A stretch of DNA of 64,000 nucleotides from Owenia fusiformis. Lineage: Eukaryota > Annelida > Polychaeta > Sabellida > Oweniidae. Position 1 is the stretch's first letter, and every line of letters starts with the position of its first letter. The stretch is from the NCBI GenBank assembly GCA_903813345.2, contig CAIIXF020000001.1, positions 47,635,885 to 47,699,884 on the forward strand. The letters run 5' to 3'. Of the stretch, positions 13,201 through 64,000 are shown piece after piece. The position numbers and the translations under genes are program-made. Under the pieces are notes generated by a model. That model did no database searches. It saw nothing but the letters and a program-made list of their open reading frames with translations, and was not told the DNA's origin.

Positions 13201-16200
13201 CTTATTGGTTTGATATATCGTTGTCATATTGCATGGTCAGCATTTGTGCTTGATTACCCGAAATTGCAATTTAGTAATCATTTGCAATTAAGTCAGGTTT
13301 TGAGATTTTGTCATGTTTATGTCTTGTGTTATGAAATGTAATTAGTAGTGTTTCTAATAACATCTTGATGGGCATTTGTTCTAGGGAACCACCTCAACTT
13401 CTGGTAAACAACAACCACAGGCAGCACCAGCTGGTAAGAAGCCACTAACAAAGAAGCAAAGATTAGCAGAGCAGAGGAAGAAAGAGAAGGTACATTAATC
13501 TGTAATTTGACTAAACCATTTAATAGCTTAGCCTTTGTAATGTGATCATTAAGTTCATGCGAGTGTTCCAAAATGCAGTTTTGAAATTAAAGCCTCACTA
13601 TGAGTATTTTCAACATCAAAATAAAGATTTGCTTTTGAATTTCTTAGTATTTCCAATGGATTGACAAGTACTTTATCTTTCATTGGACATCAAAAAGAGC
13701 TCAAACGGGTCACATCAAAGTAAAATAAATTATTAAAAATATTTTTGATCTGTCAAGTTTTTATACATCAAGTTTTTACCAATGTCAGTGAAAGGTGGCG
13801 AAGTTGTTTGTAGTACATGATTCATTCATTTTTATAGAAGTGTCGCCACCTTTTAAATCGAAGAGTTATTTAAAAACATGCAAGTTGTCAAAAATTGCAT
13901 GCACTACGAAAGATCTCTGAACTTCAAATGCTGTTTTCTCTGTGATTTAGTTTTTTCTTGGTTCAATATTAATGCAAATCAAGCTTTGTATCATATTTGA
14001 TTGAGTTTGTAACTAACATGTTAAATGATTATTTTATTAAATGAAATTATAGGAGGCAGCAGAGATAACTGAGCAGCTAAAGAGAGATCAGGAGGAGAAG
14101 CAAAGGAAAGAGGACGAAAGAAAGGAAAAAGAGAGGAGAAAAGAGGAGGAACTTAGGTCCATGAAAAAGTAAGGTTTCATTGTATTGACATACTGTATTT
14201 CTTTATCAAAAAAAACAAGACCTTCACTTCTTTGTTAGCTATTTCGCATTAAAAATCAGCTTGAACTGGAAGATTCTTGAGAAAAATGAGAAGAAATATG
14301 AAATTCAGAAAATGTTGTTTGAAAATGTTCAGAAAATAACTAAAAAATAGATTTATGATCATGACATATCCCCACACAAGACAACTTCCTCAAGTTGGAT
14401 GTTACATATGTCAATGATTACACTAGCTATGATAACTTACCATAAACCTATTGCTAAAATACATATGAGCTTTATTGTTAAGCTGTGCAGAATGAATCAT
14501 AATGTCAGTCAGTTATAGAGGAAAAATGCTGTCACTGCAATCTGATGTGATGTAGTATTTCTGTTTTTGTTGTTTCAAAGGATTTCATTCAAAGAGTGTA
14601 GATGCTCTTATAAGAGTGTAGGAGCTCATTTAAAGAACACAATTAATTTCTTGAAAAGGGGAGTAATAATTGATAACTGAGATAATGTTTTGTTATAGGA
14701 ACGTCTACATACCTGTTGTGAGTAGCTCTAAACTAACGGAAACTGAGGCACGTAGCAGGATTAACCAAGAGAAAGAGAAAGGTAAGAGATATCATTGTAA
14801 AATATACCTGGAGTAATATTCTAGTATCTGGAGATGTATATTAATAAGCCTAATGAAAATACCATTGATTCTGCATTACTTTGCATTGAATGGTTAAGAA
14901 TAATACTAACAATTACATTTTAAAGATGTTTAAAATATAACCAAGATTCCTTTAAATTTGACAAATGGGAGCTCAAGTGTCATTACTTGTTGATCACCCT
15001 GCATTTTGGTTAACATTGCTAGTTAAAGAGAATCTCTTATTTCAGATGCAGAGGACAGTGAGAGTGACTCAAGTCCTAGTAACCATGGCAACACTGTCAA
15101 GGATACTCCATCTGTAGAGCCTGCCTCAGCCAAGGTGAGGCAACCCAAGGTGAAGGCTGCTCCTACACTCTCAGCACCAAAAGTCAACAACACCAATGCT
15201 TCTAGAATCAACAAGGATATTGAGTTGGGTACAGGATCAAGATTTGCAACATTGGCAGACCTTGAGGGCCTAGAGAACATAAGCCAAAAAACAAATAAAA
15301 AACCAAAGAAAAAAGGTATTAGGGGGAATAAATATTTTTAGCATTGCATTCTAACAACTTACTACTTAGTACTTGCATATATGTGTCAGTGCTCTCTCAT
15401 TTCTAAATTAGTTTTTGGGGGAATTTTAGATTATAAAGGATTCAGAAGTCTGTAGCTACGGTTCTATTGTCAATGTGGCCGTATCCTAACCTTTCATTGG
15501 TTGAACATTACATCTACTGGTATATGGATTTTCTTTTATTTGACCCAGAAAAATATGAATTATATACGTCTTAATGTATATTTCTCTGTCTAACTAAAAT
15601 ATGTTATGACTAGTATTTACAATTGGTCATTTTTTTACAGCGCAACCAAACCATCAACCTATGCAAACCAAGGTTCAGGCAATGCAGTATCAGAATACAC
15701 AACATAGACAGCCTAGTAATATACCACCCCGGCTACAAAAGACACAGGCACACTATTCAAATGTATATCAACCACAGTCTGAGTCACTCAGACCTAGCAA
15801 TATTCCGTCCAATACTGACCAGCATACATACAATGCTTATACTGTCCAGGAAGACACTACCCGACATGCTACAGAAAACATGTGGGCTTCAAGACCGCAG
15901 TCATATCGTAGCTATGAACCGACCAATGAAAATGAGGAGGAGGAAATGATTCGTCTTGCCATGGAGCTTAGTCTGCAACAGGAGCAAGAGAAGAAACTGC
16001 AAGAAAAGAAACTGCAGGAGGAAAAACTGCTGATGAAAAAACAACAGGAGCTGAGACAGGCTGAGCAAAAACTGCAAGAGAAACAGAAAAATCGACCAGG
16101 TTTTGCTCAACACAGTTTACCCCCACAAATACATCCATTTAGTGACTCTCCATCCTACGACAAACCCCACTCAGATGATAAGCCACATACATCTTACGCT

Positions 16201-17655
16201 GCATTCAAAGAAAATAATGCATTGATAGATGACAGCTCCACTGAGAAGAATCAACTTAAGGATGTTTTCAAACAGAACTATCAATCCCCATTCCAAAGCT
16301 CAAAACTTAGTTCCCTTGGACCCCATATCACTGACAACGCACCACTTAACACAGTGTATAGCACAGGTTGTCAGAATATTGAAGATATTAACTCTGATAG
16401 TGATGAGTCTTGTGACCTTGATGACCTTGACTCGGCCAGTGATGATGGTAATACAGCTGATTTGTATGCAAAGCCTTCTATTATACCTACTGTTATACCC
16501 CCAATAATACCTACCAATATACCAAAAGCTAGTGGAAACAGTGGAAGTGACAATATCAGAAACTTTTTCCGTGATGGCATCCAGATGACAGACACTAATC
16601 AGGGAGATAGCGATAGAGGAATTGGTGAGCAGTTGCTCTCTGGTCCTGGCTTTTTGGGCAACCAAATAGGTGAACATAAATCATCAAGCAAAGAGATAAA
16701 TGAAAATGCATGTGAACCAATGCCAAGTAGTCACAAACAGATGCCATTATTTACAGGGGATGCTGATTCCCCTTCACACAATCCAGCTGATTCCCCTGTT
16801 CAAAATCCAAAGGGACCTGATGACCCTGTTCAGATTTCAATCAGACCAAATGCCCCTGTTCCCAATTTTGGACATACAGAACCTAGACTGCAGTCTAAAG
16901 TTCCTGTTCATCAAATGACAAATATTATTAACCAAAGTAGAAATCAACAACCACAAAATTTTGGCTATAGCAGACCTAAATCACCCCTTCAGAATGTTGG
17001 ATATCAGAGGCCTAATTCACCCCTCCAGAATGTTGGATATCAGAGGCCTAAGTCACCTCTCCAGAATGTTGGATATCAGAGGCCAAATTCACCTCTCCAG
17101 AATGTTGGATATCAGAGGCCTAATTCACCCCTCCAGAATATTGTATATCAGAGGCCAAATTCACCTCTCCAGAATATTGGATATCAGAGGCCTAATTCGC
17201 CCCTCCAAAATGTAGGATATAAAAGGCCTAATTCACCCCACCAAAATATGGGATATCAACAGCACTCATCAACTCAAAATATGGGACAATTGCCTGCTAA
17301 TCCCCCATATGACATGGGATACCAGCAATCACAATTTGGACACAAGCTTGGTAGGCAGCATGATACAGGAAACCAACAAAACATGGGAAATCAGCATAAT
17401 ATGGGAAGCTTCCGTAATATGGAAAGCTCACATGGCCAGGGAACCCTTTGGCAACAGTATATGGGAAATCGTCAGTATGCACCATTCAAGCAGTCATCAT
17501 TCCCAAACCAAAACATGCGCTATCAGCAGCCATATTGGCAGAAAGGCCAGCAAGCAAACTGGGGGTCACAAAACAATACGAGTAATATGCAATATGGGCC
17601 GTCACCTAACCCCACAGGGAGGAACTATAAGATGCCACCACCTGGCTTTTTATGA
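4208..17655 (+). CDS. J-domain protein with ubiquitin-interacting motif and 12-residue repeats, 12 exons
   Basis: Coding exons: 4208-4280, 8323-8375, 8965-9034, 9611-9684, 9959-9992, 12067-12327, 12847-13034, 13385-13489, 14053-14168, 14699-14781, 15046-15315, 15641-17655. All junctions are GT-AG, phases agree, and the total is 1,113 codons plus TGA. The J domain covers about residues 10-66, with the helix II pattern IKLAYRKLALQL followed by HPD at 39-41; HPD is the motif that stimulates Hsp70 ATPase. An acidic D-rich patch follows (70-90), then a Cys/Arg segment, Lys/Glu-rich probable coiled coils (exons 6-10), and a ubiquitin-interacting motif at 541-557 (EEEEM..LA...S with A549 and S553 at the expected spacing). 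Residues 884-979 are eight 12-residue repeats, and the tail is Q/N/M/G-rich. J plus UIM recalls DNAJB2/HSJ1, but length and repeats differ, so a chaperone/ubiquitin adaptor is inference. The weakest junction is the acceptor at 12,066. Confidence 0.88.
4467..5741. mobile_element. Two overlapping inverted-repeat elements in intron 1
   Basis: Pair A: CGAACTCCCATGCAGTGTCT at about 4,469 and its inverse ending near 5,046, each including GGCGGGCAGA. Pair B: arms 4,623-4,895 and 5,487-5,741, about 85-90% alike over roughly 250 bp, with GAACTCCCGTGCAGTGAT at the outer left end and its inverse at the right. The second arm of A lies inside the span of B, so the pairs interlock. Each terminus also contains its own small hairpin (GCAGTGTCT/AGACACTGC). 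A third related terminus occurs at 19,616-19,664. No transposase is visible. Confidence 0.7.
5050..5184 (+). pseudogene. Possible C-terminal scrap of a LINE reverse transcriptase
   Basis: An open frame immediately right of an inverted-repeat arm encodes a segment with ILLGEQHPQIIDLQLILGLN and then ALHRYLQNTKRF before a stop. This pattern is reminiscent of the end of non-LTR retrotransposon ORF2 proteins. It is about 45 residues long and has no neighbouring RT motifs. Confidence 0.3.
6379..6644. mobile_element. MITE of 266 bp with 24-bp terminal inverted repeats
   Basis: The left end AATGGAGTGCTTCGGCTATT matches the reverse complement of the right end (TACCGAAGTACTCCATT) with a few mismatches. 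The interior has several TGACGT/ACGTCA motifs. There is no coding capacity. It lies in intron 1 of the J-domain gene. Confidence 0.65.
7008..7041. repeat. Perfect 34-bp palindrome
   Basis: The 17-base half-site TATATTCCCTCAAATGT is followed directly by its exact reverse complement, with no loop. It lies in intron 1 of the J-domain gene. Confidence 0.8.
8603..8848. repeat. Short inverted-repeat element in intron 2
   Basis: AATACAGGCTACAGTGAAGT at about 8,625 recurs inverted at about 8,820-8,840 within arms of roughly 30 bp. The left arm also forms its own hairpin (AGCCTGTATT/AATACAGGCT). It is probably a MITE. Confidence 0.6.
10035..11716. mobile_element. 1.68-kb non-autonomous element with about 58-bp terminal inverted repeats
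   Basis: Both ends start AGGTACAGTCACGTGACAG, and homology continues inwards for nearly 60 bp, including GTAGTACACTTTTGATGTA. A second element is nested inside at 10,631-10,917. No transposase frame is seen. It fills most of intron 5 of the J-domain gene. No clear target duplication is visible. Confidence 0.75.
10631..10917. mobile_element. Nested mariner-like MITE (287 bp)
   Basis: The termini are TACAGAGTGTCCC and GGGACACCCTGTA, with inverted homology extending about 70 bp (CCTAGGCAGACATATACCAA). TA at both boundaries fits mariner-type TA target duplication. It is inserted within the element at 10,035-11,716. Confidence 0.7.
16963..17250 (+). repeat. Eight in-frame 36-bp repeats encoding a 12-residue unit
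   Basis: The units encode GYQRPNSPLQNV with small changes (K for N, I for V, H for L, V for the first G). The spacing is exactly 36 bp and the frame is kept, inside exon 12 of the J-domain gene. Each unit has an S-P dipeptide and a tyrosine. A degenerate ninth unit follows before the Q/N/M-rich tail. Confidence 0.95.
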
Positions 17656-23924: not shown

Positions 23925-25220
23925 TTAATAACATGGTCTCTCATAGTCAGGCCATTCTGATGGCTTTGCCGTGCCATCATCAATAAATTGTTTCAACACG
24001 CCGAGTGTATAGTCCAATTGTTCCATTGTTACTTGGTCAGTCACAGTCCATCTGAGTAATGAACGATCTCTTGGCGCAGCGGGAAATGTGAATGCAGTTG
24101 GGAATATGCCCTTAGATTTAAGGGCTCTGTCCAACCCAACTGTATTGTCATAATCGCCAGTGCAAAATCCGAATATTTGACTTGGCTGGTCAAGATAGTA
24201 ACCATGGTAGCCGATATCTCTCATCTTCTGTTTTAAATAGGTGAATTTCTTGTGGAGGGACTCACGCCTATCCGTTGCCCCTTTCACGATCTTCAATGCT
24301 GTCAACAGGCGGACTGCTTCGTAATCCTGGACTGCGTAACTAAACACCGATTTGGTTGTGTTTCCGCGGAATAACTTAATAAATTCTTTCGTACCCGTGA
24401 AAAGTCCACCAGTGGAGGCAAGACCCTTGGTGAGGCCGGCTGTTCTAAAATGCACCCTATCTTCTAGTCCTTGCTGACACACTATTCCGTTCCCAAGATC
24501 TCCATGTGCCCCAAGACCGTGGGATTCGTCGACAATTAACGCTGATCCGTATTTGTCCGCAAGATCACAAATGTCTTTTAACGGTACTATCGTACCAAGA
24601 GAACTGTACAAACTGTCCACGATTATGAACCCTGGGCCACGCTTTGCCATTTGGGCTTCTAGATCTTCTAAGTTATTGTGCTTGAAGACGATCATCTCCC
24701 CCTTAGCTGCTGATATGCCATATCGAAATGTCTTATGGGCAAGGAAATCAAGATAAACAGGGATATCGTTATTTGAGAGGAGGATTTCCATTAGACCACA
24801 ATTGGCATCCATCCCACTTTTTGTCAACACAACTGCTTCAGCGTTAAGCCATTCAGCCGCCGCTTCCTGAAATTTGACCATCGGGGAATCCTTCGTACGG
24901 GGCCATACAGCTGTCTTACCCCAGGCAGCTTTACCATCGTCAATTTGTGAAAGGATAAATTCAGCTTGGGCTTCGTTGATTCTACGGTCGTGCCCTATAG
25001 CCAAAAAATCACAGCTGGAATAATCAATGTCCCCCTTTTTGTGATCAGTCCAATTGAATCCGACAGCAAAGTTCATTGTTCTGGCATTACGAACCGTAGA
25101 GTCGGGAAGCGCAATTTTTGAAGTTATTTCAACTTTTGGAACATCTTTTGTCGCCGCCTTGTACATACCACGTCGGCCGCTGGCCACGAGCGCTGGTTGC
25201 CATAGTCTTCGGAAAGCCAT
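23925..25220 (-). CDS. Intronless CqsA-like alpha-oxoamine synthase (PLP enzyme)
   Basis: 431 codons plus TAA, uninterrupted. The start is the first ATG, in an ideal GCCATGG context; the frame is open slightly further upstream but without another ATG. The fold-type I PLP features are present: SGMDAN (135-140), the AHK that stacks on PLP (His162), VDESHGLGAHG (Asp231, His234), and the Schiff-base lysine in AGLTKG (Lys265). The stretch GPGFIIVDSLYSSLGTIVPL is far closer to Vibrio CqsA than, as I recall them, to animal GCAT/KBL, ALAS or SPT. CqsA condenses an acyl-CoA with an amino acid to make the CAI-1 autoinducer precursor; the substrate here is unknown. Residues 1-25 are Arg-rich and lack acids, like a mitochondrial presequence. 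A lone intronless gene among intron-rich ones suggests horizontal transfer or retroposition. Confidence 0.85.
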   Translation of the reverse strand: MAFRRLWQPALVASGRRGMYKAATKDVPKVEITSKIALPDSTVRNARTMNFAVGFNWTDHKKGDIDYSSCDFLAIGHDRRINEAQAEFILSQIDDGKAAWGKTAVWPRTKDSPMVKFQEAAAEWLNAEAVVLTKSGMDANCGLMEILLSNNDIPVYLDFLAHKTFRYGISAAKGEMIVFKHNNLEDLEAQMAKRGPGFIIVDSLYSSLGTIVPLKDICDLADKYGSALIVDESHGLGAHGDLGNGIVCQQGLEDRVHFRTAGLTKGLASTGGLFTGTKEFIKLFRGNTTKSVFSYAVQDYEAVRLLTALKIVKGATDRRESLHKKFTYLKQKMRDIGYHGYYLDQPSQIFGFCTGDYDNTVGLDRALKSKGIFPTAFTFPAAPRDRSLLRWTVTDQVTMEQLDYTLGVLKQFIDDGTAKPSEWPDYERPCY

Positions 25221-53850: not shown

Positions 53851-55607
53851 ATATTTTAATCTTCTTCATGTGACGTCAAAAGATAGTTTGCAATAATATA
53901 ATTTGTATATGTTTTGGTTGTAAATTAGAATAGAAGTTCAATTACTGCTCAATATATTAGAACAAGGCATTTTAATACCCCTAGTGTAGAGTCTGATGGC
54001 GAATCTCTCTCGTAAGAAGCGAAGTCGAATGAATGGAAAGGCGATTTAAAAAATCAACCCTGATATTACATTTCTCAATGTGAGGAAATACTGCCATTCT
54101 TATATATATATATGATTTGCATATAATGAGACTTGTGAGACTTGAGACTGTAATGGGTGAAACATGGCACAAATATTTGTCATATTTGCAAGTGAATATG
54201 TCGTTTATACCTTGGGTGAATATGCCATATTCACAAACCGATGTGGACGCGTAACAAAAGGACGCAAGTGGATTACGTCGATTTAACGAGAGGTCAAAAG
54301 TTTATATCTTGATAGAATAATCAAATATTTAATTAAATAAATTGAATTGGATTGAATGAATCAACAATACAGTACATTATAAATAGATTTTATTTACTGG
54401 GAGAGATTCAGTATGAGTTTTATTCTTGTTTTAGCCGTCAGTGAACGTTTTTCCAATGATATTTTTAAAAATATAGGAAGTTCAAAACGCTCCTGCCATT
54501 TTGAAAAATGTTTTGAAGCAATGCACTTTACATACTAAATATGCCTCTGAAAAGGTATGAACAGAATGTACCACACCAATGATATTCATAATATGGTGGC
54601 TCTTATGTATGTATTTTATTTATTGCCATCATCAAAAGGAGAAACACAATTATACAGGCGATATGAAATGGTGCAACGAAGGCCCTGGTCATCTAAATAT
54701 GAATAAAGCTGATGATATGCGTCAACTTTAATTGTTAATGCTATTAATCGACCCCTGTGGAACACCATCATTTATTTAGTTTTTCTCAGGTGTTTTGGTT
54801 CTGAATTATTCTCTCTAATAATTTCCTGGTAATTGTATTTAGTAGGAAACCTGCTATATATAACTTCTGATAGACATCGTATTGCTTAAGCAAATGTGGA
54901 CGTTTTGCAAAAATCAACAAGAGTGTACAATATTTACATGTCGATACATGTTTATGTATATTATCATGTCTTGTGGCACGTTTATGATCATCACTGATGA
55001 GTATTTATTGATGTCCAAATTCGGTAAGCACACGCCAACTTTAATGTGATCACACTACCAAAGCCCGCAAGACAAAGACACCGCTGCATTTTAATTATCA
55101 TCGATATACATTTACATGCTAACTGTGCTAAAGAAAATAGATGTTATTGTTATGTTTCCCAGCAAGCAAAAACTTAAAGTGTTGTTATTTTACGTCGAGA
55201 TGTAATTCTATGGTAATGTCAACAAGTTGTTTTAAGGGGTAATGTTCCAGGGCACGATGACTTGGGAGAACCCAAGATCTTGCCTTCTACTGCAGGATAG
55301 TTTGACAGCAAATTCTGATTAGCATAGAGCTCGTATCTCGAGGCCATGGCCTCTGTTGTCAAGTGCCTGGCGTTGATTGGTTAACAGGATGGTAGTCATT
55401 TATTAAAGGATGTCCCACTCGATATAGTTAAGTTTTGACAGTCAGCTGAGAGACGAAAAGTTTATCGCAAGCACCAGCACTACCAGTTTCTCATAGCAAG
55501 TCTAGATCATCAGGAACAACCTGTTGAGCTATTCTTCACGTCACTTCAAGCTGTGATAGAGAGTCAAAAGGGAGATAGCAAAGTACTTGCAGGATTTAAA
55601 AACCGAG
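53851..55607. other. Region upstream of SoxF
   Basis: No gene is seen. Presumably contains the SoxF promoter and 5' UTR near its right end, where GC content rises. No core promoter element could be assigned with confidence. A (TA)n run lies near 54,105. Confidence 0.4.
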
Positions 55608-58600
55608 ATGGACACCCTTTCGTCTCACATAGGCTGTGTTAGTCACAACGGTACCCAGTTACTCTCGCCAGGGGGTCCGTTTTCCGGAGTACCGAATCAC
55701 CACTACCACTACCCAGGGTACCAGCCAGCTGCAAAGTGGATGGATCGATCCTGCCTCGGAGAGCCCAGGGCTCCCACAGCCAGGCCTCGGGCTGAGCCCC
55801 GAATCCGTAGACCGATGAATGCGTTTATGGTATGGGCTAAGTCTGAGAGGAAGCGACTCGCTGACGAGAACCCGGATGTCCACAATGCAGACCTTAGCAA
55901 AATGCTGGGTAAGTTTATATAAGAATTACAAGACGTAGAGTGGGATATTGTATAGATCTTTGCGATAGGACAATTTAATCAAAATGCTCATACAGGTACA
56001 TGAATAGCTAAAACATTTCCATCTAGAGTAAGATTTCAATTATTACATGGCATTGGATCGTAAGAAATATAGGTTTCAGGGTTTTTTACATAGTCCAAGT
56101 ACAACTTCCACAGTGTATCGCAATTAATTGTTTTTATCATTTGCTTTAAATAACCTTTTAGGTTCGGCAACAAGCAAAAACAAAGCAAAACACCATTATA
56201 AATAGGTGAACTTGACATTAAAGTGGTAGAAATTAAAATGATAGAGAGCATAAATTCACGGCTGTATTTTTAACATTAGCACGTCAATGTCTCGCTTACG
56301 ATCCCTTTAATATATTTGAAAAATTGACAAATCCTTTTTTCAATCAAACCATCTTCACCGTATACACGAATTAACAGAAACTTTTCCGGAACGTTATTAC
56401 AGTTTTACTTGTATGCAACTAGTAACTTCAGTGCTCACATCACTCCGTGTCAGACCTACGGTATCTCCTAAACAGCGACGGCTTTGCGGCGGCTTTGACA
56501 CTTGCATGAACTTCGAGACTAAATTCTGTTTGTTTTATACCATTTGAGACTGAATTATCTATCTTGCGTGAGTACTAATATCTTCTATTTTCGATGCCTA
56601 GAGTATCTGAAATACAATGTAACTTTGTATTTCATCTTCCTTATTTGTTCAAGATCTTTTACACTGACTCGGGTAAGTCTAGTATGAATGAAATGTTCTG
56701 TAGAGTTGTGGTTTCGGATTGTGTTGATGATTTCTAAATGGTGGGGATGGAAGGGAGGGTGTTGCCAGGCATTGTTTCTTTGTGGGATAGATTATAGGTT
56801 GTTATGACCGGTTGTTTCAGTTACTTGTCTTGTGTTGTGTTTTCTGATACTCTGGTCTCTCCATTTGGCACTTGTGCGGACTGATTTCCAAGTGAACGAT
56901 CTATTTGATATGGTGTAATTCTCGTTTCAATAGAGGGATAGGAAGAATTAAGCTGTATATTTAGCTATTGGTAATTTTCTTGCCATATTGTTTACAGACA
57001 CTGTGCCCAATTTTCGATAATTTGTTTCATCAAAAGGGACCGGAATTTGTTGAAAGGATCCATTTACAATTACTCACAAAACCTGACGTTTTAATTTGGA
57101 CAATGGACATGTATGCGTGCATCTTTGATGTGCAGTATCTTCCAATCATATTTGGTCAACTATCTCATTCAGGAATTATTTAGGATCCAATGTAACAAAT
57201 ACACGTTGCTTCAAATATTTTACTGAATTTCGCTGCCAGTTGGAATCTGGAAACAAAACACGTGTTAATTTCAGCAAAACTGTGGATCTTTAGCTTTGGC
57301 ATCCCTTTAACTCTAGTCCTACACTATGTACATTGAGAGGTCTTATGTAGGACACAGAGACATAGTTTTGGTGACCTAAGTACTTTTGTATGCTTAAGCA
57401 ATACATTAATAGTTATATTATTGGGATGCTGAATTGTCAATTATACCTTTTATGATTTAAATGTCTGGGTTATACTTTAAACTTTGGATCATAAGTTGCT
57501 TTGACTGTTATTTTGGATTGCCATCTTGTCATATTGAGCAATGTTATGGTATTCGTGAGACAAAAATCAAATATTCTCTTCTCAACACTCTCTTGAAACT
57601 AGAATAAATCTGAAGATCAAATTTATTGTTCTGAATTGGGGTTTCGAAAAGTATTAAACAGTGTAAACTAAAATAATGACAGCTCGCTGACGACACGAGG
57701 TTTACCTTTATTATCCCAGCGAGCGAACGCTGATCGGACTGTAGCAAACTCATCTGTCCGTCTGTCGTCCACTAAAGAGTCATAAAGATATTTCCTCTAT
57801 ATTTTGTGTGACCGTGGGAAAATACAGTCGTTTATGTTTAAGTGGTTGTTGTACCTTCGATACCTAAAACAGCAACGTTTTACAATACGCACAAACTTAC
57901 ATGAATTGCCAAATATCTTGAATTGCCCCTTGTATGGCGCAAAAACCAAATTTGCAGGTTGATTCAGCGTTTACGCTTAGATCATATGCATATGAGAAGA
58001 TCTGTTGTTGTAGATCCATAGGGATTTTTTGGGTTGTAGCCTCATATATGTTGCAGTGATATATAAATAAATTACACGTAACCATGACGACTGCATGATT
58101 GGAAATGATTGGAACAATAGACTTGCAACACTCTTATAAAGTTGAGAGTTAGTTTAAAGTTTAATATAGTTTATTTTTGTGTCACAAGCATGTTAAAATA
58201 CATTTAAAACATTTTAAAAACATTTGCTTCCAGCCGATGCCGGCTTATGAGACACCATATGGTACATGTATACAAAATATTCATTTTTCAACAAAATATT
58301 CAATTTTCAATGTAAACTTACTAAATGCAAAATAAACAGTCATAGAGACCATGTATACAAAGTTCATTGTTCCTTTACTTATACTGAAAGGAGACATCTT
58401 CCCCAAGGTTGATGTTCCTGTAGATAAGTGGAAAAAGAAACCATGATCAATTGGTGATGTGAGGGCCCTCTGGTTGGTCCAATACCCCCAAAGGGGTCCC
58501 CACAATGTAGTAGATTTACAGAGTTGCTATTATGTTATACATTATTATGGAAATATTTATGCATCATTTATACATTATGACAGTATCACAATTCTAAATA

Positions 58601-61600
58601 GTGAGTAAAAGGTGCTGTAAAGTGGCAAAATCGATTTTATAAGGCCTCCATCCAGTCATACTATATAAATATATAACTGACCATTGACAGATAACATTTC
58701 TGTGCTTATAACAAAATAGAATATGAGACAATTCATTAGTTTGCTATTCTTGAGTAATTACAAATATAGGTTCTGTTAAAGTCTTTCTAGATCAAAGTTC
58801 CTTTTACTGAACATCTTAAACAGTGTACTTGCAAAGGTTCTCTGTATACAGGGTGTGTGCATAAGTCTAGAGAACAGCATAATATGATCATTTGTACCAG
58901 TATCAATGTTAGGGGCCAGTGTATTAACAGAAGCTAGAAAATTATTTCTCAAATCATTGTAGTGAGAGCACCTGAGAGTGAAGTGTATCTCATCCTCAAT
59001 CTCATTAGTGTCACATAAAGCACATTTTCGTTCCTCTAGGGGTGTATTGGTATAACGGCCTGTTTCAATGTTCAGTTTTAATGCTCCAGTTCTTAGTTTT
59101 GCAAGGATACTTCTATGATGGCGAGGCATAAACATTTCAATGTACGCTTCGGTTGATGCACCATATTTAAATTGACGATATGTTCTAAGTTTGTTGCCAT
59201 TTGTTTCATTATTTTTATCGTTCCAGATATTTCGAAGAAAAGGATCAATAGTTTGGAGGTGATATTTAATAGCTTTAATACATGGTTTTATCTCAATGTA
59301 CTGATTGTTCAGAAGTATACCACAAGATTCAATGAAATGTTTTGTGCGGAAATTCCAGCTTGATTTTCTCCGTAGTGACCATATATGTATCCGGTTATTT
59401 AGTCTGGTATTTTCCATATTGTGGAGTCGCAAATATAGTCGGGCACACTCCAACTTTTGCTTGTGGATAGGAGGGCTCCATCCCATGTCACCTCTCGCTC
59501 CTTCATTGCTTGTCTTTTGGCCTACTCCTAGGAATATTTTTGTTGCTTTATTTTGTACATTATTGATACAGCGATTGGGCGAATTTTAAGCAATACTTTA
59601 TGTTATTAACCAGTATATCATGAACTGTTCCATCATTGACATTGATTTGAAAACACCAACTTATTTTGTTTATCGTTCAACCAAGGGAAAGATCAATACC
59701 CGGTGATTTCAGCGGGAAGTGGCGTTTCGTTCATTGGATGAGCTGCGCGCGCACGCATAAAATGTAGGCTATAAGCACAGTGACCTACAGAGGGCGCTAT
59801 CACAAACAAGTACTGGACGAACCGATAAATTCCCGGGTATTGTAACGCCCTTGGTTCAACAGCGTGGCGTTGTCGTTTGCAATTCTGCCTCTGGCAAGGT
59901 TAATGCAGGATACCTTTACCTTGACCGAGTAACGTTCTTTAAATAAGTTTATTACTCAAGTTGTTACTTTTTCATTACATCTCAAGTTATATGTCTTTTA
60001 AAATGCTCATTTCTCTATCTGATTCTATACAACACATCCAAAAAGACGACGTGCTAGTCTCGGTATAGGTATTTCATTTTGGGCCTATTCCATTTTATGT
60101 TACGGCCCCAAAGAAAATGTATCGACTATGGGATCTCATACTGTACCCCCAATCCTTTTTGAAATGTAATACAGCTCAGCTCTACGTTGATTTACTTACA
60201 AATATAATTTGAGCCCCTTCCCTTACGGATTTCCGTACCTGCCTCCGTAATCTGGATCTCTTTTTCACATGAATAAAAAAAACTAATAGGCCTACAGCGG
60301 TGTATGGTATCCTCTCTTGACCCTTAAAGCACTACATATTCTACGTGTAAAAATTCTATTGCAAACAATTATATTCATTACATGTTTCGAATAATTGATC
60401 GCTGCGAATATTTTAAACGTTGAATTTTATGACTTGTATATGAATTTAGTTATATCTATGGTGCTTATAGTAGTTTGATAGTAGTTTGAGAATAAAAATG
60501 GTAAACATTATTGACTGTAGTTGACATGAGTGAGTACTCATAATGGGCAATGGTTGTCATGTATCAGAGAGTGTTTATAATGGGCAATGGCTGTCATGTA
60601 TCAGTGAGTATTCATATAGGGAAATGGCTGTCATGTTCAGTGAGTATTCATAAAGGGCAATGGCTGTCATGTATCTGTTAGTGTTCATAAAAGGGCAATG
60701 GCTGTCATGTATCAGTGAGTGTTCATAATGGGCAATGGCTGCCATGTATTAGAGAGTGGCTGCCATGTACCACTATTAGAGAGTGTTTATAATGGTCAAT
60801 GGCTGTCGTTTATTAGGGAGTGTTCAAAACGGGCAATGGCTGTCATGTATAAACTAGTGTTTATAATGGGCAATAGCTGTCGTGTATCAGTGAGTGTTCA
60901 CAATGGGCAATGGCTGTCATGTATCAGTTAGTGTTCGCAATGGTCTGTCATATATCAGAGAATGTTTATAATGGGCTATGTCTGTCATGTATCAGTAAGT
61001 TTTCACAATGGGCAATGACTGTTGTGTATTAGGGAGCGTTCAACACGGGCAATAGCTGTCGTGTATCAGTGAGTATTCACAATGGGCAATGGCTGTCATG
61101 TATCAGTTAGTGTTCGCAATGGTCTGTCATGTATCAGAGAATGTTTATAATGGGCTATGTCTGTCATGTATCAGTAAGTTTTCACAATGGGCAATGACTG
61201 TTGTGTATTAGGGGCGTTCAACACGGGCAATAGCTGTCGTGTATCAGTGAGTGTTCACAATGGGCAATGGCTGTCATGTATCAGTTAGTGTTCGCAATGG
61301 TCTGTCATGTATCAGAGAATGTTTATAATGGGCTATGTCTGTCATGTATCAGTAAGTTTTCACAATGGGCAATGACTGTTGTGTATTAGGGAGCGTTCAA
61401 AATGGTCAATTCTTGTCATGTATCAGAGAACTTTTGTTTTGGGCAATGACTGACATGTATCAGTGTTCACAATGGGCAATGACTGACATGTATCAGGGTT
61501 AATAATGGGCAATGACAAAGCATATTCTTTCAATGGATTCTATCAGATAATTCATGGATGTGTTGTTAATTATTAGCGTTTGGTTTATTTTTTCGACCAG

Positions 61601-64000
61601 ATGTAAAATCAATTTGAAAAATCTCAATTTACTAAAATGTGAGAGCACATTAAAATCGGGAAAATCAATGATAAATTGGAAAAAAGTATATATACGAGTA
61701 TATATGCAACGGTATAGCCCTTTACTGTCTTGTCGGAATGTGTATAATGATTTATTGAAATCCTACAATATACGATGTTCAGTACATTCTCGATGTCTTA
61801 TTAATGTTTCTTTTAAAAATCTAAATGACTGATTTATTCGACACTATGACGTTCGTATTCGCATTGACGAAAACTGTCCAAGGGGGCCTCTTAAGAGTGA
61901 TTTAGTATTATTAGTACATTCTTTGATCTTGTATAGTGGTCAAGGTACCCTATGTGAAGGATCTGAACTTCAAAAAGTTGATCAATCGTTACACAAAACA
62001 CAAAGGTCAAAAATTAAAAGAGCATTAGATCGATTCGTGCACTGCCAATACTTATCAATGTTTGCCGAGTCCCAATTCCTCACCAAATCATTCAAGAGAC
62101 AAACTCCCGTGTGCCCTGTTACCAAAGAATTCTTGATGAGTAAAAATCATGTGCTTGACGTTTCTACGAAATGTTAGACTTCTGTTGTTGTTTACCATGA
62201 CGTATATTATTTATGATCTCTTGTCCTGGGAACGAGTTTTGCTGCTGTTCGTGACTCCGATTTGAATCATCTTTCACGAAGTCGGTCTTTTGGAAAGGGA
62301 GGGATGACATACTTGTATTTGAATTAATCATTATTCATAATTTTATGCTACTGCTTTATAAGGCCACTCAGATGAGAATGCTGAATTTAAGATCAATCAG
62401 AGAACATTGAATAAATATATGTTTTGTTATTAGGATAAGACGACGTATGTTACGATACTATAAGTTCCTTGATACTTCAAGTTCTTTTGGTAAAATGACT
62501 ATTGATATTAATAATCTGCCAGAATCCCATTGTCACGAATTACTACAATTTCAAAACTAGTAAAAAACTTTCAAATTTCAAAACTAGTAAAAAACTTTCA
62601 AAAGCTAGTAAGCAATCGCTACAGTGAAGAAAGTGGGTAAAGAGAAACACACATCGCAGCTGAAAGGTCTTGAAGTAATTATAATTATCTACTCCTGTTT
62701 TGAAAAATCGGAGCCAAACCTATTTGGAGAAATCAAGTGCAAATCCAGGCTATGACAAGTTTAACATGACCAGGTTTGTAAGAGACGTAAATATTATATT
62801 CAACTATACCAATGAGTAACAGTTCAAGACTATTAGTGTAACGACTACACAGTGCAAACGATGATGCAATGTCCTATACAACAGAATGCAATGCAATACA
62901 ATACAATGCAACACAATACAATATAACACAATACAATGCAAAACAATACAATGCAATACAATACAACGCTACGCAACGCAACGCAATACAATACAACACA
63001 ATACAATACAATGCAATACAATACAACACCACGCAACGCAACGCAATACAATACAACACAATGTCCACACAGTGTCCAATACAATGCAATGCAATACAAT
63101 ATAATACAATACAATACAATGCAATACAATACAACGCCACACAACGCAACGCAATGCAATACAATACAACACAATACAATACTTACAATGCAAATACAAC
63201 ACAATACAATAAAATACAATACAGTACAACACCATACAATACAGTACAATACAATCCAATACAGTTACAATATGATAATACAATGATGTACCATATAATA
63301 TAAAATAGCTAATACATCATGAAATAGAAAAGAAGAGTAGCTCATACAATATTTACAATACAAAGCCATATTCACAAAGTGAGCTAGTTAAAGGATAGTG
63401 GGTGAATAAAAAACCAAAGCATGCATTAACATGGAGAATGGAGATGCATAGTATCTTCTTCGTGCCAGGCATTTATCTGCTAATTAGAAATCATGGGATA
63501 CCGCTGTGATAAGACAAGTAGTTTTACTTACAGTTTAATTGCATTCTAATTAAATCAGCTCCCATTCTAATTGACACACTGAGGGCTAGGCCAGGACACC
63601 GATCTCTGAATCTGACACCAGTTGAGACGCCTTTAATAAACATTTCGCGAAACCCTCAACGACCTAATGACTTTTAGAAGAATTTAAAGACGATTCTTTC
63701 AAAAGCAATTAATCATAACTAAACTAAAAACCACAAACAAAAAGCATTTTCTTGGTAGGCTTTTATACATCTTTCTGTACTTGTACGTCATTGTCAGCTG
63801 ATGTGCTGTTTATATCTCATGCTTTACTAATATTTCTCGTATGTTGTATTTATAGGGAAGCGCTGGCGCAGTCTTCCTCTAGTAGAAAAGCGACCATTTG
63901 TGGAGGAGGCAGAGCGACTGAGAGTCCTCCATATGCAGCAACACCCCGACTACAAGTACAGACCACGAAGGAGGAAGACGCCAAAACGAGCAGTAAAGAG
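55608..64000 (+). CDS. SoxF: SoxF-group HMG-box transcription factor (Sox7/17/18-like), 5' part
   Basis: Exons 55608-55908 and 63856-64000 (continues beyond the window). The start is the first ATG after an in-frame stop. Residues 1-64 are Ser/Gly/Pro/His-rich. The HMG box begins near residue 65 with [20 protein letters not shown] and continues in exon 2 as [20 protein letters not shown], then [11 protein letters not shown]. It binds AACAAT-like DNA and bends it. [14 protein letters not shown] and the RPRRRK end are SoxF-like, and the phase-1 intron after KMLG sits at the position I recall for SoxF genes. The protein is nuclear; SoxF factors act in endoderm and vascular or mesendodermal development. 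The beta-catenin-binding C-terminus lies outside the window. The 7.9-kb intron holds repeats only. Confidence 0.93.
58150..59585 (-). mobile_element. 5'-truncated non-LTR retrotransposon (LINE), 3' end
   Basis: An open frame at 58,776-59,585 encodes the C-terminal part of a LINE ORF2: [37 protein letters not shown], then [19 protein letters not shown] and a Cys-His cluster CALCDTN...[10 protein letters not shown] 0.6-kb 3' untranslated part follows, with AATAAA near its end. The reverse-transcriptase and endonuclease domains are missing, so this is a dead-on-arrival copy. It lies antisense in the SoxF intron. Confidence 0.85.
59682..59853. mobile_element. hAT-like MITE (172 bp) with GTTCAAC target duplication
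   Basis: The ends CAAGGGAAAGATCAATACCC and, inverted, CAAGGGCGTTACAATACCCG are flanked by the direct repeat GTTCAAC (59,675-59,681 and 59,854-59,860). hAT elements usually make 8-bp duplications; 7 bp match here. The interior is GC-rich (GCGCGCGC). A partial copy is at 1,378-1,434. Confidence 0.75.
60520..61510. repeat. Minisatellite of 35-36-bp units with a 179-bp higher-order repeat
   Basis: The basic unit resembles GGGCAATGGCTGTCATGTAT followed by CAGTGAGTGTTCACAAT. From about 60,860 to 61,397 a block of five units repeats three times with a period of 179 bp; AATGTTTATAATGGGCTATG recurs at about 60,961, 61,140 and 61,319. Confidence 0.88.
61554..62177 (+). other. Unidentified stretch with two unconnected short ORFs
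   Basis: ORFs of 92 codons (61,554-61,832) and 84 codons (61,923-62,177) lie in consecutive sequence. The second contains [21 protein letters not shown] recognise no family and see no splice link. They may be relics or chance frames. Confidence 0.2.
62880..63290. repeat. (ACAAT)n-type pentanucleotide microsatellite, about 0.4 kb
   Basis: An imperfect array built from ACAAT, with GCAAT and ACGC variants, e.g. AATACAATACAATGCAATAC. Because five is not a multiple of three and stop codons are rare in this word set, several frames stay open on both strands without being genes. Confidence 0.95.

Follow-up and report, generated by a model that had tools for sequence, protein, structure and literature searches.

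A multi-copy family of CqsA-type alpha-oxoamine synthase genes in the genome of the annelid Owenia fusiformis

In the usual account, animals possess just three kinds of alpha-oxoamine synthase, serving heme, threonine breakdown and sphingolipids. A 64,000-nucleotide stretch of the Owenia fusiformis genome (hereafter the window) contains a reading frame which an initial annotation, made from the DNA letters, had read as a homologue of the bacterial quorum-signal synthase CqsA. This raises the question of whether a fourth, bacterial-type enzyme is resident in an animal and, if so, where it came from and what it might make.

An intact gene and its paralogues

The coding sequence occupies positions 23925..25220 on the minus strand (ATG at 25220, TAA at 23925-23927) and was defined by its ORF, a profile, a PDB sequence match and its paralogues. 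As had been proposed, it is an intact single exon: 431 codons are open from 25220 to 23925 and encode a protein of 431 amino acids (P0001) in one uninterrupted frame without an internal stop, and an open frame of this length combined with nearly full-length homology rules out a chance ORF. The start codon is embedded in GCC ATG G, with G at both -3 and +4, bearing out the suggestion of a good eukaryotic start context. The neighbouring genes had been described as intron-rich, which may hold, just one HMG-box exon having been recognised in the window. A better control for introns was provided by this genome's canonical enzymes, as ALAS (on contig C5), two GCAT loci (C6) and one SPT gene (C8; labelled SPTLC2 in this analysis) are split and match exon by exon.

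Contig C1 (62.2 Mb), which carries the window, belongs to an assembly of 498,259,871 bases in 525 contigs, in which C1-C12 measure 31.9-62.2 Mb, C13 660 kb, C14 186 kb, and C15, C20 and C525 50 kb each; for this species, twelve chromosome-scale scaffolds comprising 505.8 Mb and obtained by 3d-dna scaffolding are described in PMC9977687. Elsewhere in the window, positions 15661-17655 (+) hold a glutamine-rich frame of 664 aa that carries QRPNSPLQNVGY-like repeats in tandem and has no Pfam match, positions 62842-63300 consist of low-complexity repeats that are open in multiple frames on both strands, and positions 58776-59486 (-) hold a 236-aa frame without a Pfam match which gave the impression that it may be a retroelement remnant. 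Apart from the CqsA-type gene, the HMG box was the sole Pfam family among the window ORFs scanned; its beginning is carried by an exon at 55560-55919 (+) that we take to resemble SoxF.

Only one such gene had been noted at the outset. That gene is real, and a protein search of the genome identified four further long intronless paralogues on three other chromosomes as well as one dead copy. The four are located at C8:29533790 (58% identity to the window protein), C12:7554828 (69%), C3:22103482 (the first C3 copy, 68%) and C3:22724525 (the second, 69%). Together with the window gene they make up five copies with a full catalytic set, here called active copies, which are spread over four chromosome-scale contigs and are 51-85% identical between pairs. 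In the C12 copy (L002 near 1546-1626) the frame shifts approximately 25 residues short of the C-terminus, reflecting either an assembly error or true damage.

The dead paralogue lies on a fifth contig (L005 514-1794, equivalent to C4:20707013-20708293, with the search match at C4:20707211), shows approximately 31% identity and has 426 open codons. Missing from it are the stacking histidine, the Asp-His pair's histidine, the arginine for the carboxylate and the lysine that binds PLP; judged by its open frame without a catalytic lysine, it is a predicted pseudoenzyme. In a tree it joined the five active copies with 100/99 support, though its branch is very long and its placement was flagged as unsure by the tree program.

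The five-copy family has diverged under purifying selection. Silent sites were saturated between the window copy and the other four (pS 0.76-0.79) at protein identities of 58-69%, and the three youngest copies gave dS values of 0.20-0.36 with dN/dS of 0.27-0.38. The GC3 of the family copies (0.36-0.44) is close to that of the host ALAS and GCAT exons (0.47-0.48), so the family genes are no compositional outlier. At two loci (L003, L004) TTTAG followed by AAATG occurs right at the start codon; this resembles a splice acceptor, and a 5′ leader intron is possible.

Family assignment and origin

Searching NCBIfam with the window protein returned NF005526 (alpha-hydroxyketone autoinducer synthase, CqsA/LqsA) as the best family at 290.4 bits, the next being bioF at 174. 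The same family scored 286.5 bits for the C8 copy, 286.3 and 277.3 for the two C3 copies (C3a, C3b) and 275.4 for C12, with the next family at 178-191, such that CqsA leads by 84-116 bits in all five active copies; for the C4 protein the values were 123.4 versus 72 bits. The curated cut-off of NF005526 is 428 bits, which was missed by all five active copies (275-290) and passed by 6/6 bacterial controls (n=6, 492.7-653.2 bits). A PDB sequence search gave V. cholerae CqsA at 3e-52 and the next family at 1e-33, and the Pfam domain Aminotran_1_2 (fold type I PLP domain) was matched at 95 bits against a cut-off of 19.7. An AlphaFold model (pLDDT 85, pTM 0.85), for which P0001 was combined with 32 bacterial relatives, has the alpha-oxoamine synthase fold, with matches of Z up to 47 across 374 residues; a structure search with this model placed four CqsA entries first (Z 46.3-47.1), followed by KBL (43.4) and other superfamily members. 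Profile, PDB and tree results thus agree with the earlier suggestion that the protein is closer to CqsA than to the animal ALAS, GCAT and SPT enzymes.

The phylogenetic position was examined in one quick tree and two careful trees. In the quick tree (66 rows) a split with support of 100 separated the animal copies and bacterial CqsA from BioF, KBL/GCAT, ALAS and SPT; the animal's own ALAS, GCAT and SPT gene fell on the non-CqsA side, as did ALAS and GCAT in both careful trees, and in no tree were the CqsA-type copies found within animal GCAT or SPT. Membership of the animal copies in the CqsA clade was supported at 100 in the quick tree and at 100/100 in both careful trees. The quick tree took in 44 of the best 80 loci of a pattern scan (below) plus L092, an IMG/VR relative with 31% identity. 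All trees were built without L094 and L095 (unmatched in the local search), L108-L116 and SPTLC1, and the bacterial rows called KBL, ALAS or SPT were named by their position beside the animal genes. The careful trees were built without five long rows (L107, L092, L099, L096 and the animal SPT), leaving one BioF-like row, L093.

In the first careful tree (61 rows) the animal clade (100/100) was nested within bacterial CqsA, beside the Candidatus Neomarinimicrobiota sequence L014 (91/79) and inside a nine-member set (98/98). The second (58 rows) had Candidatus Neomarinimicrobiota sequences added, 14 bacterial rows thinned and L122 dropped as a copy of L014; here the animal clade grouped with L014 and L126 at 99/92. 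In neither careful tree did any of 200 bootstrap trees recover a bacteria-only CqsA clade. However, an AU test of bacterial CqsA as one clade gave no rejection (p 0.306 and p 0.166), and the animal stem is long in all three trees (2.2-2.8 changes per column), which carries a risk of long-branch error. When 84,980 species genomes were scanned by pattern, 348 related loci were identified, the best 80 of which are 31-38% identical. The long stem together with a best bacterial identity of 38% points either to an old acquisition or to fast divergence.

Searches for a closer donor were made in several directions. In Candidatus Neomarinimicrobiota a CqsA-type gene was present in 7/245 genomes (>490 bits, with the next-best hit at 257), using a query alignment that included two sequences from this same phylum; a donor near this group is only suggested, and only among the sequences sampled. 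Myxococcota were rejected as a closer donor, since 195 genomes yielded 3 matches at E <=1e-45 with 35-38% identity, one being L030 itself (Corallococcus, genome G004), which is no gain over other bacteria. A phage carrier was likewise rejected, as 0 of 14 matching phage records covered 80% of the query and, among the 10 listed, those annotated were a KBL or bio locus. Among the titles and abstract openings of open-licence papers listed by our searches, none concerned an animal CqsA, and the terms oxononanoate, autoinducer and quorum are all absent from the main text of a compendium of horizontal gene transfer in Metazoa (PMC13342648). Automatic annotations of animal CqsA-type proteins may well exist.

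Horizontal transfer from bacteria, as first put forward, is the best reading of these trees, although it is not proven. The alternative that survives best holds that the copies are an old eukaryotic branch of alpha-oxoamine synthases, inherited vertically, patchily lost and sister to all bacterial CqsA, the intronless genes being retrocopies of a split gene that was lost. The unrejected AU constraint leaves room for it, and bacterial CqsA was drawn as a single group in the quick tree, with support of 36; the 0/200 bootstrap trees and the 99/92 sister grouping with L014 and L126 speak for nesting among bacteria instead. The ceiling of 38% identity among the best 80 of 348 loci would also be expected of an ancient eukaryotic lineage. 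Homology between the young copies ends within approximately 70 bases either side of the coding unit, which would fit retrocopying, but inspection by eye saw no poly(A) tail at the copy ends. On balance, we consider a vertical origin unlikely.

The protein had further been said to begin with a basic, acid-free segment resembling a mitochondrial presequence. Its first acidic residue is indeed residue 26, and 7 of its first 30 residues are K or R; the presequence-like residues 1-25 (25146..25220, minus strand) form a helix at 2-22 in a low-confidence part of the model. Acid-free starts of 24-25 residues are found in the C3a, C3b, C12 and C8 copies, and one of 21 residues in C4. Because 2/11 bacterial sequences compared (L020, L086) also start acid-free over a similar length, this evidence for a presequence is suggestive only, and the window protein is probably targeted to mitochondria.

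The reading we favour, to which we assign a probability of about 0.78, is that of a resident animal family of PLP-dependent alpha-oxoamine synthases of CqsA/LqsA-clade descent. A bacterial gene, with Candidatus Neomarinimicrobiota as its nearest sampled source, would have entered the animal lineage long ago (or changed fast thereafter), gained a mitochondrial presequence, and then duplicated and diverged under purifying selection.

Active site and acyl pocket

The catalytic residues named in the initial annotation are in place in the alignment. H162 (V. cholerae CqsA H133; 24735..24737, minus strand) is presumably the contact to the PLP ring, and within D231-E-S-H234 (24519..24530, minus strand) we take D231 and H234 to be the PLP-binding Asp and His. 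The carboxylate of the substrate is presumably held by R390 (CqsA R358; 24051..24053, minus strand). The CqsA-type GPG stretch was found as GPGFIIVDSLYSSLGTIVPL at residues 195-214 (24579..24638, minus strand), with S at the CqsA 178 position. The Schiff-base lysine is K265 (24426..24428, minus strand), corresponding to K236 as named for CqsA in PMC3376566. At each of nine active-site positions checked, 5/5 active copies match bacterial CqsA, with S at 178 accepted as equivalent to T, and the PLP lysine, the PLP-contact His, the Asp-His pair and the carboxylate Arg are present in all five, D231 being invariant.

Given this conserved catalytic set, the active copies would follow the standard catalytic cycle. 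An amino acid (or SAM) would replace K265 on PLP to form the external aldimine, with R390 holding the substrate carboxylate; the quinonoid would then attack an acyl-CoA, and decarboxylation would free an alpha-amino-ketone (or an enamine). With SAM as substrate, CqsA itself is described as giving an enamine (PMC3376566, PMC3285556).

The acyl pocket of CqsA is lined by H30, V32, F79, F257, I263, F264, C346, P348 and A349 (PMC3285556). Across 51 bacterial CqsA rows seven of these nine positions are well kept, the commonest letter occurring in 44-51 rows; H30 is found in 44/51, F79 in 46/51, Y or F at 257 in 36/51 and C346 in 46/51. The variable positions are 32 (L 19, M 19, V 5) and 257 (Y 20, F 16, C 6, S 5), and in the two closest Neomarinimicrobiota rows the nine letters are H, L, F, Y, I, F, C, P and A. 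In the animal copies H30 is replaced by N (5/5) and position 32 is A or S, these two being the least sure, as the model is of low confidence where they align. Further changes are F79 to W (4/5), F257 to G (4/5) and C346 to V or T (5/5), with five different letters at 263. F264 and P348 are kept in 5/5 copies, A349 in 3/5, F79 and I263 in 1/5 each, and the other positions in none. Since the pocket is altered at most of its nine lining positions, the animal enzymes probably use an acyl chain other than the C8-C12 one of CAI-1/LAI-1.

These changes bear directly on whether the animal makes CAI-1/LAI-1-like alpha-hydroxyketones directed at bacteria, as a true quorum-signal synthase would. Membership in the CqsA clade and the intact catalytic set agree with such a role, and responses of host cells to LAI-1 have been reported (PMC4669118), but the residues lost from the pocket and the scores below the family cut-off both tell against it. 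A search of the genome for a CqsS-like sensor domain, run without a positive control in an animal genome, gave no match, which together with the altered pocket makes a direct role in bacterial signalling less likely. We regard this reading as quite improbable: of the original description as a quorum-signal synthase homologue, the kinship stands, whereas the function is not supported.

A different question is whether the copies simply arose as diverged paralogues from the GCAT, ALAS or SPT that the animal already has, with which they share superfamily and fold. A mitochondrial-like N-terminus, found also in ALAS and GCAT, would suit this idea. However, position 178 is T or S in 46/51 CqsA rows and M in 21/21 rows of other alpha-oxoamine synthases, and the trees contradict such an origin, as the split at 100 sets the CqsA-type copies apart from the animal's ALAS, GCAT and SPT gene; we consider it very improbable. 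The bacterial affinity of the protein could in principle stem from contamination by bacteria or from an endosymbiont sequence inserted recently, but this is contradicted by copies residing on four chromosome-scale contigs, host-like GC3, silent-site saturation between the window copy and the other four, the absence of any close bacterial relative among the best 80 of 348 loci, and five other window ORFs of at least 150 aa of which 0/5 match any Pfam family.

Possible product and comparison with known systems

The locus thus belongs to a real, intact and conserved animal family with bacterial CqsA kinship, whose function, to go by the pocket residues, has probably been retuned. A fourth animal kind of alpha-oxoamine synthase, with five active copies and one dead, would offer an assayable carbon-carbon bond-forming step and, if the reading is true, a candidate enzyme for making the amino ketones or amino alcohols that marine worms contain as natural products. 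One of the animals sampled for such compounds, A. viridis, is a sea anemone. Vicinal amino alcohols, the carunculines, occur in the fireworm Hermodice, and their biosynthesis is hypothesised only; matching signals are described in extracts of Perinereis, S. spallanzanii, Eisenia and Sipunculus, and also of A. viridis, and carunculine-type signals are described as absent from B. brandaris, M. sabatieri and P. lividus (PMC9504318). Volatile ketone pheromones are described in Platynereis (PMC8477482). We hypothesise that the condensation of an amino acid with an acyl-CoA by such an enzyme could be the committed step to vicinal amino alcohols; Owenia does not figure among the animals listed above.

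A bolder and doubtful version of this idea is that an annelid lineage domesticated a bacterial quorum-signal synthase as a mitochondrial enzyme family producing medium-chain alpha-amino-ketones, as the committed step on the way to vicinal amino alcohols of the carunculine/complanine type or to ketone pheromones, with the dead paralogue as an SPTLC1-like partner. The animal would then possibly be using a bacterial chemical idiom.

Among known systems, CqsA/LqsA (NF005526; V. cholerae 2wk8, 3hqt) resembles the animal copies in sequence, profile, structure, tree position and catalytic set, the likeness extending to T/S at position 178 and D at position 48. In contrast to CqsA/LqsA, the animal copies have an animal host, a presequence-like extension, a C-terminal tail and a rebuilt acyl pocket, with identity of at most 38%, scores under the 428-bit cut-off and no match to a CqsS-type sensor domain in the uncontrolled search described above. 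GCAT/KBL, ALAS, SPT and AONS have the fold, the PLP chemistry and the catalytic residues in common with the CqsA-type copies, but form a separate clade (100), and ALAS, GCAT and SPT are split in this genome. ALAS and GCAT are mitochondrial enzymes, the location predicted here for the window protein. Finally, SPTLC1 and SPTLC2 illustrate how a dead alpha-oxoamine synthase paralogue is retained alongside an active one, and their heterodimer provides a precedent for the dead C4 paralogue beside the active copies, with which a putative pairing can be envisaged by analogy.
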